Shown here one piece after another: positions 34,106 through 45,946 of a stretch of DNA of 64,000 nt. Under the pieces are notes generated by a model. The model was given only the letters and a program-made list of their open reading frames with translations. It searched no databases and was not told the DNA's origin. The stretch lies in the NCBI GenBank assembly GCA_944382965.1, contig CALWOA010000015.1:1-64000 (forward strand). The letters are read 5' to 3'. Every line of letters starts with the position of its first letter. The stretch's first letter is position 1. A program made the translations under genes and the position numbers. The stretch is from an uncultured Oscillospiraceae bacterium (GTDB lineage: Bacteria > Bacillota > Clostridia > Oscillospirales > Oscillospiraceae).

Positions 34106-36004
34106 ATGAACATGAGAAAACTGCTGTGCGCTGCTCTGGCTGTTGTGATGGTGTTTGCTCTGGTCGCTTGCGGTCAGCAGAACGTCGTCAGCAACTCCTC
34201 CAGCGAAGGCACTCAGGCAGCTGTGGAAGCTACCGCTGCTCCCGAAGCCGGCAAGCCCACTGAGCCCACCGGCCAGCTGGTCATCGGTACTACTACCGAC
34301 CTGGAGAACGACTTCTATGATACCAGCTTCTCCAACGCTGCCACCAACTACAAGCTGTATGATCTGATCCACGGCTACGGCACTGTCGTTTCCGACAAGG
34401 AAGGCGCCTGGATTTACGATCCCACTGTCGTGGCCAGCCACGAGGAAGTGGAGAATGAGGACGGCACCAAGACCTACACCGTCACCATCAACGACGGCCT
34501 GGTCTGGAGCGACGGCACCCCCATCACCGCTAAGAACTACGTCTTCCAGCTGCTGCTGGAAAGTAGCCCTGAGATGAACCAGGTCGACGGCTATCCCAGC
34601 CAGGCTGGTTACCCTCTGGTGGGCTATGACGAGTTCTTCGCCGGTGAGACCAAGAACTTTGCCGGTGTGCACCTGGTCGACGACATGACCTACTCCGTCA
34701 CCGTCAAGGCTGAGGAGCTGCCCTACCACTACGACATCACCTACGCCCTCGCCAGCCCCCGCCCCATGCACGTCATCGCTCCTGACTGCGATGTTGTGGA
34801 TGCTCCCGAAGGCGCTATGATCACCGGTGACTTCACTGCAGAACTGCTGCAGAAGACCATCAACGATTCCAAGACCGGTTACCGTTACAACCCCAGCGTT
34901 GTGTGCGGTCCTTACCTGTTTGAGTCCTACGACATCGCCAGCCGTCAGGGCACCCTGGTTGTCAACCCCAACTACGCCGGTGACTACCGTGGTGTGAAGC
35001 CCATGATCGAGAAGATCGTTGTCAAGACTGTTAAGAGCGATACCATGATCAACGAGCTGGCTTCCGGCTCCGTGGATCTGCTGTTCCAGAGCAGCGGCGC
35101 TGATACCATCAATGCCGGCCTGGACCTGGTTGACCAGGGCAAGGCTCAGTACAGCACCTTCTTCCGTAACGGTTACGGCAAGGTGCAGTTCGACTGCAGC
35201 CAGTTCCCCACCGACTCCGAGAATGTCCGTAAGGCCATTGCCTACTGCCTGGACCGCAACGAGTTCGCTCGTCAGTACAGCGGCGGCTACGCAGCTGTTG
35301 TCCACGCTTACTACGGCCTGGCTCAGTGGGAGTACCAGGAGTCCAAGGACTGGATCGACCAGAACCTGAACACCTACGAGAAGAACATTGAAGAGGCTAA
35401 GAAGCTGCTGGAGGAGGACGGCTGGAACAAGAACGCCGACGGCTCCGATTACTCCGGCACCGGCACCCGTTACAAGGAAGTGGACGGCCAGCTGAAGCCT
35501 CTGGTTATCGAGTGGGCCAACACCGACGGTAACCCCGTTTCTGAGCTGCTGGCTACCATGCTGCCCGAAGCTATGGCAGAAGCCGGCATGGAGCTGAAGG
35601 CCACCACCATGGACTTCCCCACCCTGCTCAGCGGCATCGACCACACCAGCGATAAGATCTACAACATGTACAACCTGGCTACTGGTTTCGCTCTGGCAAG
35701 CTCTCCCTGGTACTACTACTCCACCGATCCCGTGTGGATGCAGGCCGGTTACAACAGCAACTGGATTGTTGACGAGGAGCTGGCTGCCGCTGCGGAAGTT
35801 CTGAAGCCCATTGCCTACGAGGACGACGAGGCATGGCTGGCTGCATGGCAGAACTTCATCGATGTCTGGAACGACAAGATGCCCGATATCCCCCTGTATT
35901 CCGACGAATATTATGATTTCTACTCCAACAAGCTCCATGGCTGGGAGTCCACCTCCGTTTGGGAGTGGTCCCGTGCTGTCCTGGATGCCTGGGTAGAGGC
36001 CTAA
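34106..36004 (+). CDS. Oligopeptide-type ABC transporter substrate-binding lipoprotein
   Basis: A 632-residue receptor of the SBP_bac_5 family. Signal peptide with lipobox LVAC (cysteine at 22), a low-complexity Ala/Glu/Pro linker, then the family fold with WSDGTPITAKNYVFQLLL near 135, YNPSVVCGPYLFESYD and the FPTDSENVRKAIAYCLDRNEF segment. It captures peptides or related solutes and delivers them to the permeases encoded next. Codon use is strongly biased (CGT, GGT, AAG, CTG), suggesting high expression. A structured spacer separates it from the permease genes, a common way to make receptor in excess. Confidence 0.9.
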   Translation: MNMRKLLCAALAVVMVFALVACGQQNVVSNSSSEGTQAAVEATAAPEAGKPTEPTGQLVIGTTTDLENDFYDTSFSNAATNYKLYDLIHGYGTVVSDKEGAWIYDPTVVASHEEVENEDGTKTYTVTINDGLVWSDGTPITAKNYVFQLLLESSPEMNQVDGYPSQAGYPLVGYDEFFAGETKNFAGVHLVDDMTYSVTVKAEELPYHYDITYALASPRPMHVIAPDCDVVDAPEGAMITGDFTAELLQKTINDSKTGYRYNPSVVCGPYLFESYDIASRQGTLVVNPNYAGDYRGVKPMIEKIVVKTVKSDTMINELASGSVDLLFQSSGADTINAGLDLVDQGKAQYSTFFRNGYGKVQFDCSQFPTDSENVRKAIAYCLDRNEFARQYSGGYAAVVHAYYGLAQWEYQESKDWIDQNLNTYEKNIEEAKKLLEEDGWNKNADGSDYSGTGTRYKEVDGQLKPLVIEWANTDGNPVSELLATMLPEAMAEAGMELKATTMDFPTLLSGIDHTSDKIYNMYNLATGFALASSPWYYYSTDPVWMQAGYNSNWIVDEELAAAAEVLKPIAYEDDEAWLAAWQNFIDVWNDKMPDIPLYSDEYYDFYSNKLHGWESTSVWEWSRAVLDAWVEA

Positions 36005-36012
36005 ACATGTAT

Positions 36013-36056
36013 CCGGCGGAACGCCGCGCCTTGTGCGCGGGTTCCGCCGGCTTTTC
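36013..36056 (+). terminator. Intercistronic hairpin / attenuator after the receptor gene
   Basis: CCGGCGGAAC pairs with GTTCCGCCGG across an inner GC-rich stem, followed by CTTTTCC. It probably reduces read-through or protects the receptor message. Confidence 0.6.
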
Positions 36057-36198
36057 CGGCATAAACCCCGGAAGAGGGGGATGCCGCGGCGCTCGGTCCA
36101 TACCGCATTTCCCCGGATGGACCCATATTGATTGGGCCATGTCCCATGGCAATACAGGAACGATGTGTTCCTACTAATTTGAAACGGAGGAACGGTGA

Positions 36199-37191
36199 AT
36201 GGGAAAAGGAAGATATCTGCTGAAACGGTTCGTATACATCGTTTTTGTGTTTTTTATCATTTCTATTCTGATGTTCGCAATTTACAAATCCATGCCCGGT
36301 GATCCTGTGGATATTATGCTGGGCGACAGCAAGACTTCTATGAAACCCGACGCGTACCAGGCACTGTATGATAAGACAGTGAAGGATCTGGGACTGGACA
36401 AGCCCCTGCCTGTGCAGTACGTGGCCTGGATGGGCAATATGCTCACCGGAGAATTTGGCTATTCCACCCAATATAAGCAGGAAGTCATCAACATCATCAG
36501 CGCACCCATGATCAATACGGTGCTGCTGAACATCCTGACGATGATTGTGGTGTTTATTATTGCGATTCCCCTGGGTATTGTAACCGCAGTGCGAAAAAAC
36601 GGCGCCTTTGATAAGACGGTGCAGGTTGTGACCATTGTGGGATACAGTATACCTACCTTTATTGTGGCACTGCTGGCAATCTTCCTGCTGGCGGTAAAAT
36701 TCCCCATTTTCCCCATCAGCGGCGTCAAGAGCGCCGGACTGAACGCTACCGGCCTGGAGTATGTGCTGGACAGACTCTGGCACATGGCCCTGCCGGTGCT
36801 GGTAATGTCTGTTTCCGGTATCGGCGGCATTACCCGTTATGTCCGGGCAGCCATGATTGATGTGCTGCGGATGGATTACATCAAAACCGCCCGGGCCAAG
36901 GGCCTGCGGGAAAAGACTGTGGTGTATATCCATGCATTCCGCAATGCGCTGATTCCCGTGGTCACCATTACCACCTGGTGGGTTGTGGGCCTGTTCGGCG
37001 GCTCTATTGTGATTGAATCTGTGTTCCTGTGGCCCGGCCTTGGCAAGATGCTGATTGACGGCCTGCTGCAGCGGGACTTTGCGGTGGTCCTGACCATGCA
37101 GATGTTCTACGTTGTGCTGTCTCTGGCGGGCAACGTGATTATGGACATTGCATATACCATCGTTGACCCCCGGGTACGCCTGGAAGACTAA
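36199..37191 (+). CDS. Oligopeptide-type ABC transporter permease, DppB/OppB-like
   Basis: A 330-residue protein with six hydrophobic segments. The N-terminus GRYLLKRFVYIVFVFFIISI and PGDP motif, the GEFGYS segment and the EAA loop (YIKTARAKGLREKTVVYIHAFRNAL, near 230-254) are those of DppB-type permeases. It forms the channel with the next gene product. A ribosome binding site (CGGAGGAACGGTGA) precedes the ATG. The next gene starts 13 bases later. Confidence 0.93.
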   Translation: MGKGRYLLKRFVYIVFVFFIISILMFAIYKSMPGDPVDIMLGDSKTSMKPDAYQALYDKTVKDLGLDKPLPVQYVAWMGNMLTGEFGYSTQYKQEVINIISAPMINTVLLNILTMIVVFIIAIPLGIVTAVRKNGAFDKTVQVVTIVGYSIPTFIVALLAIFLLAVKFPIFPISGVKSAGLNATGLEYVLDRLWHMALPVLVMSVSGIGGITRYVRAAMIDVLRMDYIKTARAKGLREKTVVYIHAFRNALIPVVTITTWWVVGLFGGSIVIESVFLWPGLGKMLIDGLLQRDFAVVLTMQMFYVVLSLAGNVIMDIAYTIVDPRVRLED

Positions 37192-37204
37192 GGGAGGCAA
37201 AAGA

Positions 37205-39016
37205 ATGCGTAACGAAAAGAAAAAATCCCCCCGCCGTTCCACGGCCTCCAAGGCAGCCCAGCAGATGATGATGGGCGGCATGCCCCAGGAGGAAGAAGAA
37301 GTACTCCAGAGCCCCATGCAGATGGTGATCCACGATTTCCTGCGGGATAAGATCGCCATGATCGGCGTGATTCTGTTTACCTTCATTTTCCTGTGCTGCG
37401 TGTTTTTGCCGTACTTCTTCCCCATTGACCTGTACTATCAGGATGTTACCCAGGCAAACGTAGCCCCGGGCTTCGGCATGCTGAATGTGCCTGCCGGTCT
37501 GAAGAACAACGCCCAGGATCTGTCTGTGGGCAGCTCCTTCTCTGTAGGCCTGGATAAGGACGGCAACGTCTATGAATGGGGCACCTTCCCCAACGCCAAG
37601 CTGAAGAACATTCCCAGCGCAAAAGAAACCGGCAAGCTGGTGCAGATTTCCGCTGGCCTTGACCATGTGGTTGCCGTGAATGAGGACGGCCAGGTCTTTA
37701 CCTGGGGCAATGACCGTATGGGCCTGAACTCTATCCCCATGGAGCTGCGCACCGGCGGCAATGACATCAAGCAGATCATGGCCGGTTACCAGATTTCCCT
37801 GGCACTGACCGAAGACGGCGAGATGTACAACTGGGGCAGCCAGTACCTGCTGAGCATCACCTACCCCGAAGGGGTTCAGGGCAACATCGACAAGTTTGCC
37901 GCCAGCACCAACATCGTCATGGTACTGACCAAGGACGGCGAAGTGGTGCCTCTGACCAACAAAACCTCTGCATACACCAACATTCCCGAGGAAATCCAGG
38001 GCGATGTGGTGGATCTGGCCATCACTGACGAAAGCGCCGCCGCGGTGACTTCCGACGGCCGTGTCTATACTTGGGGCAACAACATCAAAAAGACCTTGAA
38101 TGTCCCCGAAGAGATTCAGGGCCAGGTGGCTTCCCTCAGCGCAGGCCGCTATCACTACACTGCCATTTTGAAAGACGGCTCCGTGTTCAGCTGGGGTGAT
38201 AACACCCACGGCCAGGCCAATGCTCCCAAGGATACGGGTATTGCCAGCGTGGATGCCGGCTACTATGCCAACTACGCCATTACGGAAGACGGACAGGTAA
38301 TTGCCTGGGGACTGAAGGGCTACCTGATGGGCACCGATGCCTTTGGCCGTGACCTGTTCCGCCGTCTGCTGGTTGGCGGACGGATGACTATGACCGTGGG
38401 CGCTATCTCCGTCGTAATTTCCACCATCATCGGTATTCTGGTGGGCGGTATTTCCGGTTACAAGGGCGGCAAGGTGGACAACCTGCTGATGCGTCTGACG
38501 GAAATCGTCTCCTCCATTCCCTTCCTGCCATTCTGTATTATTCTATCGTCCATATTGGGCAACAGCATCAGTGAAACCCAGAGGATCATTTTGATTATGT
38601 GTATTCTGGGCTTGCTGTCCTGGCCGGGCATCGCCCGTCTGGTTCGCGGCAGCGTGCTGGCAGAGCGGGAGCAGGAATTCGTTACCGCCGCCAAGGCTCT
38701 GGGCGTAAAGGAAGCCGGAATTATCTTCCGTCACATCCTGCCCAATATCATTACTGTTATCATTGTCAATGCAACCCTGAACTTCGCAACCTGCATGCTG
38801 ACCGAGTCTTCTCTGTCTTTCATCGGCTTCGGCGTCAACGAGCCTAACGCCACCTGGGGCAACATGCTCACCGGCGCCCAGAACGGTCAGGTTATCGCCA
38901 ACTACTGGTGGCGCTGGCTGTTCCCGGCTATGCTGCTGGGTATCTGCACCATCAGCATCAACTGCATCGGCGACGGCCTGCGGGATGCCATTGACCCCAA
39001 ATCGAAAGAGAGGTGA
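37205..39016 (+). CDS. DppC/OppC-type permease with an inserted seven-blade RCC1-like beta-propeller
   Basis: A 603-residue protein, about twice the normal length. Residues 1-49 are cytosolic, 50-72 form the first membrane helix. Residues about 103-371 hold seven repeats of roughly 38-42 residues of RCC1 type, for example VQISAGLDHVVAVNEDGQVF and VASLSAGRYHYTAILKDGSV, most ending in a WG pair. The permease then resumes at the usual MGTDAFGRDLFRRLLVGGRM (375-394) with five helices and a normal EAA loop (EFVTAAKALGVKEAG, 491-505). By topology the propeller faces the outside, next to the receptor. GGGAGG fixes the start. The fourth repeat is degenerate (no WG). Confidence 0.93.
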   Translation: MRNEKKKSPRRSTASKAAQQMMMGGMPQEEEEVLQSPMQMVIHDFLRDKIAMIGVILFTFIFLCCVFLPYFFPIDLYYQDVTQANVAPGFGMLNVPAGLKNNAQDLSVGSSFSVGLDKDGNVYEWGTFPNAKLKNIPSAKETGKLVQISAGLDHVVAVNEDGQVFTWGNDRMGLNSIPMELRTGGNDIKQIMAGYQISLALTEDGEMYNWGSQYLLSITYPEGVQGNIDKFAASTNIVMVLTKDGEVVPLTNKTSAYTNIPEEIQGDVVDLAITDESAAAVTSDGRVYTWGNNIKKTLNVPEEIQGQVASLSAGRYHYTAILKDGSVFSWGDNTHGQANAPKDTGIASVDAGYYANYAITEDGQVIAWGLKGYLMGTDAFGRDLFRRLLVGGRMTMTVGAISVVISTIIGILVGGISGYKGGKVDNLLMRLTEIVSSIPFLPFCIILSSILGNSISETQRIILIMCILGLLSWPGIARLVRGSVLAEREQEFVTAAKALGVKEAGIIFRHILPNIITVIIVNATLNFATCMLTESSLSFIGFGVNEPNATWGNMLTGAQNGQVIANYWWRWLFPAMLLGICTISINCIGDGLRDAIDPKSKER

Positions 39017-39022
39017 GCCGGA

Positions 39023-40018
39023 ATGCATTTGCTTGAAGTCAAAAACCTGCACACATATTTCACTACCAAGAAAGGCATTGTCAAGGCTGTCAACGACGTG
39101 ACCTACAGCCTGGATGCCGGCAAGACCCTGGGTATCGTGGGTGAGTCCGGCTCCGGCAAGAGCGTTTCCGCCATGAGCATTATCCGCCTTTTGGACGGCA
39201 ACGGCTATATCGAAAGCGGCAGTGTCACTTTCGACGGCAAGGACATCCTGAATGCTTCCGACAAGGACCTGCACCACATCCGGGGCAATGAGATCTCCGT
39301 GATCTTCCAGGAGCCTATGACCTCCTTGAACCCGGTGTTCACCATAGAGCGCCAGATCGGCGAAGTGCTGCGGCTGCACCAGAAGCTGGACAAGAAACAG
39401 GCCTATCAAAAGGCAGTTTCTCTGCTGTCTGACGTAAAAATCCCCAACCCCGAACGGGTGGCAAAGCAGTATCCCTTCCAGCTCTCCGGCGGTATGCGCC
39501 AGCGCGTGATGATCGCTATGGCTCTGGCCTGCCGGCCTAAGCTGCTGATTGCCGACGAGCCCACCACGGCTCTGGACGTGACCATTCAGGCCCAGATTCT
39601 GAAGCTGATGAACGAGCTGAAGCATCAGATGGGTACCTCCATTTTGTTCATCACCCATGACCTGGGTGTTATCCACGAGATGGCAGATGAAGTGGCAGTT
39701 ATGTACTGCGGCCAGATTGTGGAGAAGGCCGACGCCCAGACCATTTTCCATGGCGGCGTTCACTCCCATCCTTACACCGAGGGCCTGATGACCTCCATTC
39801 CCCGGCTCAATACCCCCAAGGGTAAGCGGCTGGAGGCAATTCCCGGCGCGGTTCCCAACCCGCTGTACCTGCCCCAGGGCTGCAAGTTTGCTCCCCGGTG
39901 CAAGTACTGCACCGAGAAGTGCCTGGCCGCGGAGCCGGAGCTGCAGGAAGTCGCTCCCAACCATTTAATCCGGTGTTTCTATCCAGAGAAGGCGGTGAGA
40001 AAAGAACATGCAGAATGA
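39023..40018 (+). CDS. Oligopeptide ABC transporter ATP-binding protein, DppD/OppD-like
   Basis: A 331-residue ATPase with Walker A GESGSGKS near 38-45, signature [10 protein letters not shown] near 156, Walker [13 protein letters not shown], and the C-terminal oligopeptide-transporter extension with cysteines ([14 protein letters not shown]). It starts six bases after the permease and overlaps the second ATPase gene by eleven bases. The two ATPases form the heterodimeric motor of the importer. Confidence 0.95.
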
Positions 40019-41021
40019 GAACCGTAAGGTGCTGCTGACCATCAAGGATGTAAAGCAGTACTTCCCTGTAAAAAAGACCAAGCTGCGGGAAAAGCAGCGC
40101 TATGTTCGTGCCAATGACGGCATTTCTCTGGAGATTTACGAAGGCGAAACCCTGGGCCTGGTAGGCGAGTCCGGCTGCGGTAAGTCCACCTTCGGACGGA
40201 CCCTGCTGCAGCTGTATCCCCAGACCCACGGCGATGTGATTTACCACAAGGACGGTAAGGACATCGACCTGAAGAAGCTGAGCAAGGAGGAGATGCGGGT
40301 GCTGCGCAAGGACCTGCAGCTGATCTTCCAGGACCCCTATTCCTCCCTGAACCCCCGTATGACGGTGGGCCAGATCATCGGTGAGGGCCTGGTGTCCCAT
40401 GGCATCTTCAAAAAGGGCGATCCTGCCATGCAGGAGTATATCTTCCAGGTGATGGAAAACTGCGGCCTGGCGAACTACATGTTCGGTCGGTATCCTCACC
40501 AGTTCTCCGGCGGTCAGCGCCAGAGAATCGGCATTGCCCGAAGCCTGGCTCTGAACCCTGCCTTCGTGGTCTGTGACGAGGCGGTTTCTGCACTGGACGT
40601 GTCCATTCAGTCCCAGATTCTGAACCTGCTGTCGGAACTGAAGGAAAAGCAGAACCTGACCTACCTGTTCATTACCCACGACCTGAGCGTTGTCAAGTAC
40701 ATCAGCGACCGCATCGGCGTTATGTATCTGGGCAATATGGTGGAGCTGGCTCCCACGGAGGAGCTGTTCGCCAACACCTTGCACCCCTACACCGAGGCAC
40801 TGTTGTCTGCGATTCCTGTGGTGGATGAGGAGGACAAGCGGGAGCGGATTTTGCTGGAAGGCGATATCCCCAGCCCGGTGAATCCTCCCTCCGGCTGCAA
40901 GTTCCACACCCGCTGCCGCTACTGCCAGGAAAAGTGCAAGAAGGAGGTCCCGGAGTGGACCAACGTGGGCAATGACCACTATGTGGCATGCCACTTCCCT
41001 CTGCACAAACAGGAAGGGTAA
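40008..41021 (+). CDS. Oligopeptide ABC transporter ATP-binding protein, DppF/OppF-like
   Basis: A 337-residue ATPase with Walker A GESGCGKSTFG near 56, signature FSGGQRQRIGIA, Walker B FVVCDEAVSALD and the C-terminal CKFHTRCRYCQEKC extension. It pairs with the preceding ATPase. Overlapping starts imply coupled translation and equal amounts. Confidence 0.95.
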   Translation: MQNENRKVLLTIKDVKQYFPVKKTKLREKQRYVRANDGISLEIYEGETLGLVGESGCGKSTFGRTLLQLYPQTHGDVIYHKDGKDIDLKKLSKEEMRVLRKDLQLIFQDPYSSLNPRMTVGQIIGEGLVSHGIFKKGDPAMQEYIFQVMENCGLANYMFGRYPHQFSGGQRQRIGIARSLALNPAFVVCDEAVSALDVSIQSQILNLLSELKEKQNLTYLFITHDLSVVKYISDRIGVMYLGNMVELAPTEELFANTLHPYTEALLSAIPVVDEEDKRERILLEGDIPSPVNPPSGCKFHTRCRYCQEKCKKEVPEWTNVGNDHYVACHFPLHKQEG

Positions 41022-41277: not shown

Positions 41278-43254
41278 TCAGCATTTTTTAAATACAGGAA
41301 TCCATTCCAAGGGACAGGGGACGTCTGCCCATTGTCCGCCTGGGTAGTCCTGTTTCGTATGAATGTCCTGCCAAGTGCAGCCAGCGGGTAAATAGACCCG
41401 CCGGGAACGCTGACCGGGGTAGAGAACCGGGGCTACCAAGTAGTCCGGACCAAACAGATAACTGTCCTCCACTTCCCAGCAAAGCGGATCATCAGGAAAT
41501 TCCAGGAACAGCGCCCGCATAACCGGCGTACCATCCTGATGGGCCTGATCCATTATCTGACGGATATAAGGACGAAGCTTCTCCCGCAAATTTAGGTGAT
41601 CTTTGCAGATTTCATAAACCTGCAGTCCATAGCTCCAAACTTCATTGTCCGCGCCGGAGCAGCAGGAAGCCCCACCTGTGGTCCCGATAGGAGGCTGCTT
41701 TGGTTCCCGGTCGCCATGCAGCCGCATGACGGGGCAGAAGGTACCCCACTGGAACCAGCGGACAAACAGTTCCCGGTAATCTTCCTTCCGGGGGTCGCCG
41801 CCGTGGAAGCCGCCGATGTCTGTTGTCCACCAGGGGATGCCGGCAATGCCCATATTCAGTCCCGCAGCCAGCTGGTTGCGCAGGCTTTCGTAACTGGAAG
41901 CAATGTCGCCTGACCACACCAAGGCGCCGTATTTCTGACTACCGGCCCAGGCGCAGCGAATCAGATTGACAATATCCTTCTGTCCCTGCTGTGACATGCC
42001 CTCATAGAAAGTACGGGCATACTCCACAGGGTACAGATTGCCGATTTGCAGGTGCGGTCCCCGGTAATAGCGGTAGTTGTCAAAGCTGTAGACGGAGTAT
42101 TCCGGCTCCGCTTCATCCAGCCAGAAAATGTGAATGCCCTTCTGGTAATAGTTCTGGTTCACCTTCTCCCAGACAAATTTCCGGGCCGAAGGATTGGTGG
42201 CATCAAAATGAATGGTGTCTCCCATGAAACTCAGACCGGTTTGCACGCCCCGGTCGCAGCGGGTCAGGTAACCCAACTCCTGCATTTGAGGGAAGTTTTC
42301 CGAATCCTTGTCCACGGTGGGCCAGACGGAGACCATCAGGGAAATGCCCATCTGATTCAATTCTTCCACCATTGCTTCCGGATCCGGCCAATATACCGGG
42401 TCAAATTTCCATTCTCCCTGTTTGGGCCAGTGGAAAAAGTCGATGACAATGACATCAATGGGAAGATTCCGCCGTTTATACTCTCTGGCGATGTTCAGAA
42501 GTTCCTCCTGAGTCTGGTAACGCAGCTTGCACTGCCAGAATCCAAGACCGTATTTCGGCATCCTGGGAGCCGTACCGGTAACGGAAGCGTAGCCGGAAAT
42601 TAGTTTCTTGGGAGTATCTCCCGCAACTACCCAATAATCCAGGGCCTGGGTTGCGTAGGCTTCAAAGGTGGTGATGTTCTTGCCGAATACCGCCCGGCCT
42701 ACCGCTGGGTTGTTTCACAAAAGACCGTAGCCCCGGGAGGAAATCAGGAAAGGCACGCTGGCCTGGGAATTGCGGTGGGCCAGTTCCAGATCCGCGCCTT
42801 TCAGATTAAGAAAGTCCTGTTGATACTGCCCCATGCCGTACAATTTTTCCTGGGGGTCCAGGGATTCAAACCGGGCGGTGAGGTAATAATCCCCGCCTAA
42901 GATCGGCTCAAATTCCCGGGCTTCCACCTCGATGGCGCTGCATTTGGGGTCCAGGAGATCCCGCCGGTTGCGGCAGTATTCTTCCAAAAGGGCGGTTCCG
43001 TGCTGGTTGTAAATGGTGATTTTCCCTCGTTTGGTCAGATGCAGCCGGATTTTGCCGTTGACCAGGTCGGCCCCGTTGTCATCCATGGTAATTTGGGCCT
43101 GGGCACTGTGGGGCAGAGTCAGTGCCCAATCCTCCTGGGGCAAATGGGCCTGCTTGGTGGCACGAATCCGCAGAGCATTGTCACCCCAGGGTTCGACCAA
43201 GAGGGTTTCGTGGTTATAAGTATAGAGCAGCTGATTACCGCGAATTTCCATCAT
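41278..43254 (-). pseudogene. Glycoside hydrolase family 31 gene interrupted by an in-frame TGA
   Basis: Two same-frame stretches, 43254-42715 and 42714-41278, together encode one GH31 protein of about 657 codons. The N-terminal beta-sandwich part ends at SRGYGLL; then comes TGA (42717-42715); then NNPAVGRAVFGKN and the catalytic barrel continue with VIDFFHWPKQGEW, the nucleophile region FWLDEAEPEY and WWTTDIGGFHGG. GH31 proteins normally read GLLWNNP here, so TGG has become TGA by one base. Family members are alpha-xylosidases or alpha-glucosidases. Unless read through, only a useless fragment is made. The gene follows the GH51 gene by 27 bases in the LacI-controlled operon. Confidence 0.88.
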
Positions 43255-43281: not shown

Positions 43282-44802
43282 TTATTTCTCACCGACGGAC
43301 AGGCGCAGGACGTTCCAGGAAACAGGAGGCAGAGCAGCGGTGGCGGTTTTGCCTTCCACCACAGCTCCGGAAACCTTCCGGGGACGGATATTGTCGGCTC
43401 CGGGGCCGTTGACGATCTGAAGATCCGGGTGGTTCAGGGTGATGTGCTCTATCAAATTCACCTGGGAGAAGCCTTCCAGAGTGGTGCTGAGCACCAATTC
43501 CGAATCGGTGGAACGGTTCACTGCAAAGATCGTAACCTCTCCCTTTTCCTGATTGTAAATGCTGACACTTTCCAGGTAGGGAACGTCAGTGAAGGTCTTG
43601 CTGTCATACCGGGGGGAGTCAGCGGCGGTGTGCAGCACGGTACCCCGGCCATAGAGGCTGGCATGGAGGAAGGGCCAGTAAATGCTCTGAATCCAGGCCT
43701 GGCCGCCCTTGGGCTGGGTCATAATGGGGGCAATTACATTCACTAATTGGGCAAGGCAGGCGATCTTGATCCGGTCAGCGTGCCGCAAAATGGTGATCAG
43801 CATGGTACCAAATACCGCAGCGTCGGCCATGGTATAGATATCCTCTACCAGGCTGGGAGCATACTGCCAGGGGGTGGCTTTGCGGTAGGCTTCGTCGCTG
43901 CCTACCGAGTGATACCACAGGTTCCATTCGTCGAAGCTGAGCATCATCTGCTTGTGGGAGCGCTTTCTGGCCCTGACATAATCACAGGTGGCCAGAACAT
44001 TCTGAATGAAGCTCTCTGTGGTCAGGGACTTCGCCAAAAAGTCTTTCAGATCCTGGGTGGTGTCTCCCAGGTACTGGTGGATGGACAGGTAGTCCACATC
44101 CTCGTATACATGATCCAGAACGGTGGCTTCCCATTGGGGGAAGGTGGGCATTTCCGGGTAGGAGCTGCCGGAAGCTACCAACTGAATGCTGTCGTCAATT
44201 TTCCGCATGGCACGGGCGGTTTCCACCGCCAGACGGCCATATTCTTCCGCTGTTTTGTGACCGACCTGCCAGGGACCATCCATTTCGTTGCCCAAGCACC
44301 AGGTTTTGATGTTGTAGGGCTGAACAGCGCCGTGGGAAATTCGAAGGTTGCTGTACAGGGTGCCGGAAGGATGATTGCAGTATTCCAGCAGGTTGCTGGC
44401 GTCGTCAACGCCTCGAGTACCCAGATTTACTGCCATCATAATATCCGCACCGATTTCCCGGCACCAACCGGCGAATTCCTGGACGCCCACTTGATTTGTT
44501 TCCAGGGTGCACCAGGCCCGATCCAGCCGGACGGGGCGCTGCTCCTTTGGGCCGACACCGTCTTCCCACCGGTAACCGGATACGAAGTTGCCGCCGGGAT
44601 AGCGAATCAGGGGGATGTTCAGCGGTCGAATCAGTTCCAGAAGATCCTGCCGGAAACCCGCAGCGTTGGCGCTGGGATGCTCCGGACAATAGATGCCGTC
44701 GTATACCGCTCTGCCCAGATGCTCGATAAAGGAGCTGAACAGCCGGTTGTCAACGTCGGCTACGGTAAAATGGGGGTCGATGTGAAGGTTTGCCTGCAAC
44801 AT
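43282..44802 (-). CDS. Alpha-L-arabinofuranosidase, GH51
   Basis: A 506-residue intracellular enzyme that removes terminal L-arabinofuranose from arabinan or arabinoxylan oligosaccharides. GH51 motifs: SSFIEHLGRAVYDGIY at the start, IRYPGGNFVSGYRWEDGVGP near 66, the acid/base glutamate in WCLGNEMDGPW near 173, and the nucleophile glutamate in LSFDEWNLWY near 293. GAGGTG fixes the ATG at 44802. No signal peptide. It lies downstream of lacI with an operator-like site between them. Confidence 0.95.
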   Translation of the reverse strand: MLQANLHIDPHFTVADVDNRLFSSFIEHLGRAVYDGIYCPEHPSANAAGFRQDLLELIRPLNIPLIRYPGGNFVSGYRWEDGVGPKEQRPVRLDRAWCTLETNQVGVQEFAGWCREIGADIMMAVNLGTRGVDDASNLLEYCNHPSGTLYSNLRISHGAVQPYNIKTWCLGNEMDGPWQVGHKTAEEYGRLAVETARAMRKIDDSIQLVASGSSYPEMPTFPQWEATVLDHVYEDVDYLSIHQYLGDTTQDLKDFLAKSLTTESFIQNVLATCDYVRARKRSHKQMMLSFDEWNLWYHSVGSDEAYRKATPWQYAPSLVEDIYTMADAAVFGTMLITILRHADRIKIACLAQLVNVIAPIMTQPKGGQAWIQSIYWPFLHASLYGRGTVLHTAADSPRYDSKTFTDVPYLESVSIYNQEKGEVTIFAVNRSTDSELVLSTTLEGFSQVNLIEHITLNHPDLQIVNGPGADNIRPRKVSGAVVEGKTATAALPPVSWNVLRLSVGEK

Positions 44803-44844
44803 TGTGATCACCTCATAAGCAAATTAAGATGGATAATTACGGAA

Positions 44845-44862
44845 AGTTAAACGATTAGGTTG
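44845..44862 (+). promoter_or_regulatory. LacI operator candidate before the GH51 gene
   Basis: AAGTTAAACGATTAGGTT, an exact 18-base match to the site at 46263-46280 before the GH127 gene. The core TAAACGATTA is an imperfect CG-centred palindrome, as bound by LacI-family regulators. Confidence 0.65.
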
Positions 44863-44867
44863 TGATT

Positions 44868-44901
44868 TTTTATACGAAGCAATTTCTTGCTTCGTATAAA
44901 A
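44868..44901. repeat. Perfect 15-bp inverted repeat between lacI and the GH51 gene
   Basis: TTTTATACGAAGCAA and its exact complement with a TTTC spacer. It lacks a proper T run in the direction of transcription, so it is not a clear terminator. It may set message stability between regulator and enzyme genes. Confidence 0.55.
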
Positions 44902-44907
44902 GAAAGT

Positions 44908-44918
44908 AAAACGTTTAA
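44908..44918 (+). promoter_or_regulatory. Second operator-like site near the lacI stop codon
   Basis: AAAACGTTTA fits the AAnCGnTTA pattern and contains the perfect palindrome AAACGTTT. It overlaps the stop codon of the LacI gene, about 46 bases from the first site. Confidence 0.4.
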
Positions 44919-45946
44919 ATTCTGACAACCGAATCCCGCAGATGCACACTGCAGGGTAGCAGAAGTTGTTCATTGATGAACGTACTGGTCTGAATTTGCT
45001 GCAAGACCAGTTCTGCACTTTTTCTTCCGATTTCGTTCAGGGGAGGCGCTACGCTGGAAATGGCGGGAGAGTAGAGATTCACAATTTCCCGGTTGTCATA
45101 ACCGAACAGAGAAATATCCTTGCCCACGGCAATATTGTGTTCCAGGCAGTAGGTGTATACACCGCTGGCCATCAGGTCGTTCATGGCAAAAATGGCCGTA
45201 ATGTCCATGGACAGGAGCTTTTGGGCGATTTCATAGCCGCTGTTGCGGCTCCAGTCCCCCCAGAAGGTGGTTTCCGGGTTGTACAGAATCTGATTTTCCA
45301 GCAGTGCCCGCTGAAAACCGCATAGACGGGACTGGGCGTGGATACTTGTGACTGGCCCGACGATTACGCCGATTTTCCGGTGTCCGCAACGGATCAGCGT
45401 TTGCCCCACATGGTATCCGGCTTGTTCGTCGTCGGGATAGACGCTGGAAAAACCGCCGCCTTTTGGAAAACAATAGGCATAAACAAAGGGAATATCCCCG
45501 AAAGTCGGCAAAAAAGAAATTTCCCGGCAGTGGTATCCCACATACACGATCCCTTCTACCTGCTTGGAAACCAGCGTAGACAGGGCGTTCTCAAAATAGC
45601 GGGAATGTTGCGGGGTATCGGTAAAATCGTTTTTGTAGCGTTTGAACAGACGTATGTTGTCCAGGATGATCTCATAGCCGTGTTCTTCGCAGTAGGATTC
45701 GATGCCATCAACGATTTCCGGTGTGTTGAAAACCGTCAGATCTTCCGTAATGATGCCAATGCTGTTGGAACGACGGAGCTTCAGATTTTTGGCAAAGCTG
45801 TTGGGACGATAGTGCAGCTCCTGGGCAATGGTAAAAATCTCCTGGGCTTTGCTGTCGCTGGCGGCGCCGGGTTTGCCGTTAAGTACATTGGAAACTGTGG
45901 CAACGGATACACCGGTGCGTTGGGCAATGTCTTTCATGGTTGCCAT
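44915..45946 (-). CDS. LacI family transcriptional regulator of the arabinan locus
   Basis: A 343-residue regulator with an N-terminal HTH and hinge (MKDIAQRTGVSVATVSNVLN, then YRPNSFAKNLK) and a periplasmic-binding-like sensor domain (FGYDNREIVNLYSPAISSV near the end). It most likely represses the glycosidase and transport genes on both sides until an arabinose-containing sugar binds. The first ATG at 45946 is eight bases after GAGGT. It is divergent from the GH127 gene, whose promoter carries an operator-like site. Confidence 0.93.
   Translation of the reverse strand: MATMKDIAQRTGVSVATVSNVLNGKPGAASDSKAQEIFTIAQELHYRPNSFAKNLKLRRSNSIGIITEDLTVFNTPEIVDGIESYCEEHGYEIILDNIRLFKRYKNDFTDTPQHSRYFENALSTLVSKQVEGIVYVGYHCREISFLPTFGDIPFVYAYCFPKGGGFSSVYPDDEQAGYHVGQTLIRCGHRKIGVIVGPVTSIHAQSRLCGFQRALLENQILYNPETTFWGDWSRNSGYEIAQKLLSMDITAIFAMNDLMASGVYTYCLEHNIAVGKDISLFGYDNREIVNLYSPAISSVAPPLNEIGRKSAELVLQQIQTSTFINEQLLLPCSVHLRDSVVRI

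Follow-up and report, generated by a model that had tools for sequence, protein, structure and literature searches.

A seven-blade beta-propeller inserted in the OppC permease of a peptide importer: a widespread subfamily in Clostridia with members in Spirochaetes

Background

Peptide importers are among the best-known ABC transporters. One widespread branch of them, found in Clostridia and also in some Spirochaetes, has a large domain that probably lies outside the membrane. The OppC/DppC subunits solved from E. coli and M. tuberculosis (8z21, 8z1v, 8j5q, 8wd9) share one permease fold with OppC_N, a GTDxxGRD motif and an EAA loop, and belong to systems of a receptor, two permeases and ATPases; their whole chains comprise 282-302 residues. 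The receptor of E. coli DppABCDF caps both permeases, and a scoop motif after TM1 of DppB (two short helices and a loop) contacts the receptor by entering the DppA cleft (PMC12136057); in the maltose importer, also of type I, MalF-P2 (MalF residues 91-271), a large folded domain on the periplasmic side of one permease, contacts MalE (PMC3150292); and BLIP-II, a secreted soluble inhibitor, binds TEM-1 with picomolar Ki (PMC6121496).

No description of an OppC with an RCC1-type or other propeller was found in the literature searched, subscription papers lying mostly outside its reach. Domain databases can be expected to list such fused proteins. The propeller and the OppC halves each belong to a known family; within the literature searched, what appears to be new is their combination, its spread, the single clade and the link to oligoendopeptidase F (PepF).

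Operon

The window, i.e. the whole stretch of 64,000 nucleotides analysed here (uncultured Oscillospiraceae bacterium, GCA_944382965.1, contig CALWOA010000015.1), contains a five-gene operon on the + strand at 34106-41021, in the order SBP (receptor), OppB, propeller-OppC, OppD, OppF; as the OppC/DppC class requires, the permease gene is accompanied by a receptor, an OppB and two ATPases, as in the solved systems.

34106..36004, + strand: SBP_bac_5 oligopeptide receptor (OppA-like lipoprotein, 632 aa; Pfam SBP_bac_5 3e-43, AF2 model)
36199..37191, + strand: OppB/DppB permease, 330 aa (Pfam BPD_transp_1 4e-40 and BPD_transp_1_N)
37205..39016, + strand: OppC/DppC permease with seven-blade propeller insert, 603 aa, ATG at 37205
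39023..40018, + strand: OppD ATPase (Pfam ABC_tran, oligo_HPY)
40008..41021, + strand: OppF ATPase, overlapping OppD (Pfam ABC_tran, oligo_HPY)

The same operon was found in relatives: among the window and 77 further loci (from the best 80 of 403 matching stretches, see below), an SBP was present in 73 of 78, OppB in all 78, OppD in 74 and OppF in 72, with ORFs chosen by codon score and some contigs ending early. The same contig bears a second, propeller-less OppC gene about 27 kb further downstream (L293; C15:65958-66866), and the genome thus contains both kinds of OppC.

Architecture of the propeller-OppC

The features of the protein are listed below.

37349..37417, + strand: TM1, residues 49-71 (AF2 helix, hydropathy)
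37421..37501, + strand: linker from TM1 to propeller, residues 73-99 (conservation profile)
37511..37582, + strand: blade 1, residues 103-126 (AF2 model)
37637..37708, + strand: blade 2, residues 145-168 (AF2 model)
37766..37837, + strand: blade 3, residues 188-211 (AF2 model)
37886..37951, + strand: blade 4, residues 228-249, least conserved and without WG (AF2 model, conservation)
38006..38077, + strand: blade 5, residues 268-291 (AF2 model)
38126..38197, + strand: blade 6, residues 308-331 (AF2 model)
38240..38311, + strand: blade 7, residues 346-369, six residues ahead of the GTD motif (AF2 model)
38330..39004, + strand: GTDxxGRD motif, permease core TM2-TM6 and EAA loop (Pfam BPD_transp_1 7e-34; 8z21_B)

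An earlier, sequence-only reading of this DNA had described seven RCC1-like repeats inside OppC, between TM1 and the GTD motif, as a functional-looking insertion with intact permease motifs on the outer side, and had proposed an RCC1-profile search and a structure prediction as checks. The repeats were recovered as Pfam RCC1_2 with 152.1 bits (cut-off 22; E 1.8e-45), as required for the RCC1/BLIP-II superfamily, and the AF2 model of the window's OppC gives a closed seven-blade propeller between TM1 and the GTD motif, nearest to BLIP-II (1jtd, 3qi0). The permease is likewise complete: both domains that the class requires were found (OppC_N, residues 36-88, 45.1 bits, cut-off 23.9; BPD_transp_1, residues 410-600, 117.5 bits, cut-off 26.4), and the permease part matches the fold of the solved OppC 8z21_B over its whole length. 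The nearest NCBIfam model, the equivalog Opp4C, scored 319.8 bits, below its curated cut-off of 350. A PF00415 search of the genome yielded no match, nor did its 14 controls, and hence does not discriminate. The outer position agrees with OppC topology, from which an extracytoplasmic propeller is probable. In contrast to BLIP-II, the propeller is part of a membrane protein, and nothing here indicates a beta-lactamase.

The insert comprises 276-328 residues, against 282-302 for whole solved chains, and none of the 70 full-length members lacks any of the seven blades. Conservation averages 2.45 bits over the linker (residues 73-99) and 2.01 bits over the propeller. Within the propeller, the A-B loops fall into a more conserved group (blades 2, 3, 6 and 7) and a less conserved one (blades 1, 4 and 5; 70 sequences, effective number 26.5); since many of the most conserved positions are structural residues of the repeat (Gly, His, Trp), we assign no binding face.

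The propeller stands directly ahead of TM2, and the six-residue exit from blade 7 (ending at 369) to the GTD motif (starting at 376) is well conserved (2.8-3.0 bits versus a propeller mean of about 2.0). Such an exit would suit a gate or brake, i.e. a propeller that would govern the opening of the translocation path in response to the receptor or the envelope. We consider this quite unlikely, for no link between propeller and movement was found, the exit conservation may merely reflect the joining to a permease motif, and the pore cap in solved Dpp is the receptor and not a permease.

Spread and phylogeny

The propeller-OppC is a widespread subfamily and not a one-off, and its permease halves form one clade. 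With the genome of the window counted each time, it was found in 20 of 101 genomes of the same genus (E 1e-80 or better; including one, G020, whose match is cut by the contig start), in 30 of 394 genomes and 17 of 168 genera of the order, and in 14 of 398 genomes and 7 of 267 genera of the phylum. In a scan of named genomes with a 111-residue query (last blades and junction; E 1e-3), 403 of 419 stretches matched, a threshold that plain OppC might partly reach, and the best 80 were kept; 77 of these contain the full fused ORF, and in the other three (L056, L123, L129) the match begins at most 150 bases from the contig start. The homologue search for this insertion site that the sequence-only reading had suggested thus succeeded, and an assembly chimera, the event by which that reading would have fallen, is excluded for all practical purposes by the recurrence of the junction in genus, order, phylum and named genomes.

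By record title, the best 80 loci include Candidatus Faecousia (the nearest, 99%), Gemmiger, Lachnospiraceae, Roseburia and Tissierellia, and seven belong to Spirochaetales/Sphaerochaeta; the propeller-OppC occurs in two phyla. None of 3334 matching plasmid records had one place covering 80% of the propeller-OppC.

In the tree of the permease half (insert omitted), all 33 propeller rows, i.e. those left of 74 after thinning and omission of one short row (L088), fall into one clade (support 100/97), with no plain OppC inside it among the rows sampled; the positions of long-branch rows (L003, L172, L167, L168, L002 and others) are unsure, and L006, L007 and L018 are absent from set A1. Given this single clade, the seven blades kept in every full-length member and the insert length of 276-328 residues, one ancient insertion of the propeller is the simplest reading. 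A neutral passenger domain without function is a very improbable explanation: we know of no phenotype for the propeller, as such a passenger would have it, but the blade number is constant and the clade, unmixed with plain rows in the sample, extends over two phyla.

A further, shorter insert ahead of the GTD motif was observed in a 415-aa OppC on another branch of the tree (L170, 1492-2736, - strand).

Receptors

The receptor of the window has the lipobox LVAC, read directly, and its AF2 model (pLDDT 89.4) is that of an ordinary SBP of the peptide/nickel class; 518 of 559 residues align with lactococcal OppA, among the longest alignments obtained. In Spirochaetales/Sphaerochaeta the lipobox is absent from all six receptors called (L113, L119, L120, L122, L124, L130). 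These begin with an apparent signal peptide and so seem to be soluble, whereas the receptors of most Clostridia are lipoproteins.

The spirochaetal loci bear on a reading in which the propeller anchors the importer to glycans of the host or to peptidoglycan. Propeller domains are generally capable of glycan binding, and many of the best 80 loci appear, by record title, to come from gut bacteria. However, no carbohydrate-binding Pfam domain was found in the protein, and the seven spirochaetal loci, six of them with a called receptor that lacks a lipobox, place the system also in two-membrane cells; anchoring is hence distinctly improbable.

The median receptor ORF rises from 563 aa in controls lacking a large insert (match in 36 of 42 loci) to 638 aa at propeller loci (75 of 77 with a match, from the best 80) and 767 aa (range 750-786; 9 of 14 with a match) at loci of a second enlarged OppC type treated below, a comparison that rests on few insert origins.

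PepF neighbourhood and cargo

By profile search, PepF was found near 42 of 77 propeller loci (from the best 80 of 403), but near none of 22 OppC loci without large insert from the same order (eight of these have a somewhat longer loop, 'midins', with the permease starting at residue 113-129, and two an N-terminally short ORF) and near none of 20 plain OppC loci of the wider phylum, drawn from 30. Fisher's test of propeller loci against same-order controls gives p 8e-7, which is only a guide, since the loci are related and the counts not independent. PepF was not seen in the other 35 of the 77 loci, some of which end early, and in the genome of the window it is unlinked to the operon and sits elsewhere (C4).

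Of the 65 loci (from the best 80) with at least 2.3 kb of upstream sequence, 37 have PepF as the gene directly preceding the SBP. The neighbour gene of about 600 aa, found in 41 loci from the same set, was assigned through its representative L058 (TIGR00181, E 2e-195; Pfam Peptidase_M3). Clustering of the neighbours of 78 loci revealed, beyond the transporter genes, only PepF in more than ten; the next commonest occurs in six.

With PepF often beside the operon in relatives and an OppA-like receptor, the cargo is probably oligopeptides. A sugar substrate, suggested by glycosidase genes downstream of the operon, was rejected: the GH31 and arabinofuranosidase genes have the opposite orientation, and it is PepF that recurs beside the operon in relatives.

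Proposed role of the propeller

Our first-ranked reading, held tentatively, is that the propeller may serve, outside the membrane, as a module on which the peptide receptor docks. A BLIP-II-like seven-blade propeller would have been inserted into the TM1-TM2 loop of an ancestral OppC, between the N.AP and GTD..GRD motifs. On the outer side it would correspond by pseudo-symmetry to the scoop loop of OppB/DppB and lie close to the site where the receptor caps both permeases. As a protein-binding side wall it could hold and orient the peptide-loaded receptor from the OppC side, in the manner of MalF-P2 with MalE. This orientation might support the handover of long or bulky peptides, which PepF would then cut in the cytosol.

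The proposal that the receptor is held from the OppC side draws on the capping and scoop arrangement of Dpp and on the MalF-P2 precedent. Like MalF-P2, the propeller would be a large folded domain on one permease that touches the receptor, a contact only proposed in this case. MalF-P2 is not a propeller, and is located in a different loop. The DppB scoop likewise follows TM1 and contacts the receptor (PMC12136057), but is small and belongs to the partner permease; the OppB of the window retains its own TM1-TM2 (scoop) region, without a large insert, in full-length alignment with E. coli DppB. A lid over the channel, considered in the sequence-only reading, is less likely, because the receptor itself caps both permeases in solved Dpp (PMC12136057).

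Mean distances over 66 loci are 0.68 for the propeller, 0.71 for the receptor and 0.27 for the permease half; a propeller that appears to diverge as fast as the receptor is in line with a partner-facing surface. Docking also draws support from the receptor gene kept beside the propeller-OppC in relatives, from the PepF link common to both enlarged OppC types and from the rise in receptor length. Several results speak against it. Partial correlations of the propeller distances are similar for SBP (0.25), OppB (0.26) and OppF (0.30) and do not point to the receptor in particular. Both propeller and receptor are acidic (median charges -15 and -58), so that there is no obvious charge match. The receptor model is ordinary, and PepF is missing from part of the propeller loci and from the operon's surroundings in the window's genome.

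Fast divergence would also suit a propeller that binds some other outside partner (long peptides, a secreted protease or a surface protein) and so gathers or makes peptides at the mouth of the importer. The PepF linkage, the ordinary look of the receptor model and the protein binding of BLIP-II, of the same fold class, fit with this as well; we nevertheless regard it as rather unlikely, as there is no recurrent third partner among the neighbours. If the propeller, as in the docking reading, does grip the receptor, it would represent a second solution to receptor docking and a compact test system; propeller-OppC may also be of use in predicting the uptake of longer peptides by particular gut bacteria.

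A second enlarged OppC type

Other OppCs of 516-685 aa (L153, L155, L160, L207-L209, L213, L214, L216) are likewise enlarged in the TM1-TM2 loop, by roughly 200-370 residues of a different insert. Like the propeller-OppCs they are linked to PepF (9 of 14 loci with large insert; 1 of 4 with small insert), but they belong to a separate clade, and for three of them the insert was searched and gave no Pfam domain (L153, L155, L160; with L157 the only rows run against Pfam, of 35 labelled or searched as second type or middle). No domain common to the two kinds of insert was detected.

Together with four small-insert rows, the second type forms a clade of 13 (100/98) among plain OppCs, to which it is joined by a branch with support of 96/88; a tree constrained to unite it with the propeller-OppCs, and with it a single origin of loop enlargement, is not formally rejected (p-AU 0.066). 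It is possible, but doubtful, that the TM1-TM2 loop of OppC serves generally as a docking port, into which unrelated folded domains (the propeller and at least one domain of no known family) were inserted separately in PepF-coupled oligopeptide importers. These would then form a new type I subclass, with the receptor gripped from both sides (OppB scoop and OppC side wall).

Other genes

The GH31 glycosidase gene downstream of the operon (41278-43254, - strand) appears as two ORFs, of 427 and 179 aa; a near relative (L055) has a single 573-aa ORF at this place, and the split represents either a broken gene or a sequence error. Beside it (43282-45946, - strand) are an arabinofuranosidase gene (Alpha-L-AF_C match) and, by eye, a LacI-like regulator gene; these genes likely make up a small cluster for sugar use, distinct from the peptide operon. 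Elsewhere in the genome (L004; C11:61553-62329), a separate protein of about 370 aa, probably secreted, combines RCC1 repeats with an N-terminal part rich in Pro and Glu; it is encoded next to a polysaccharide-deacetylase-like gene (by eye).
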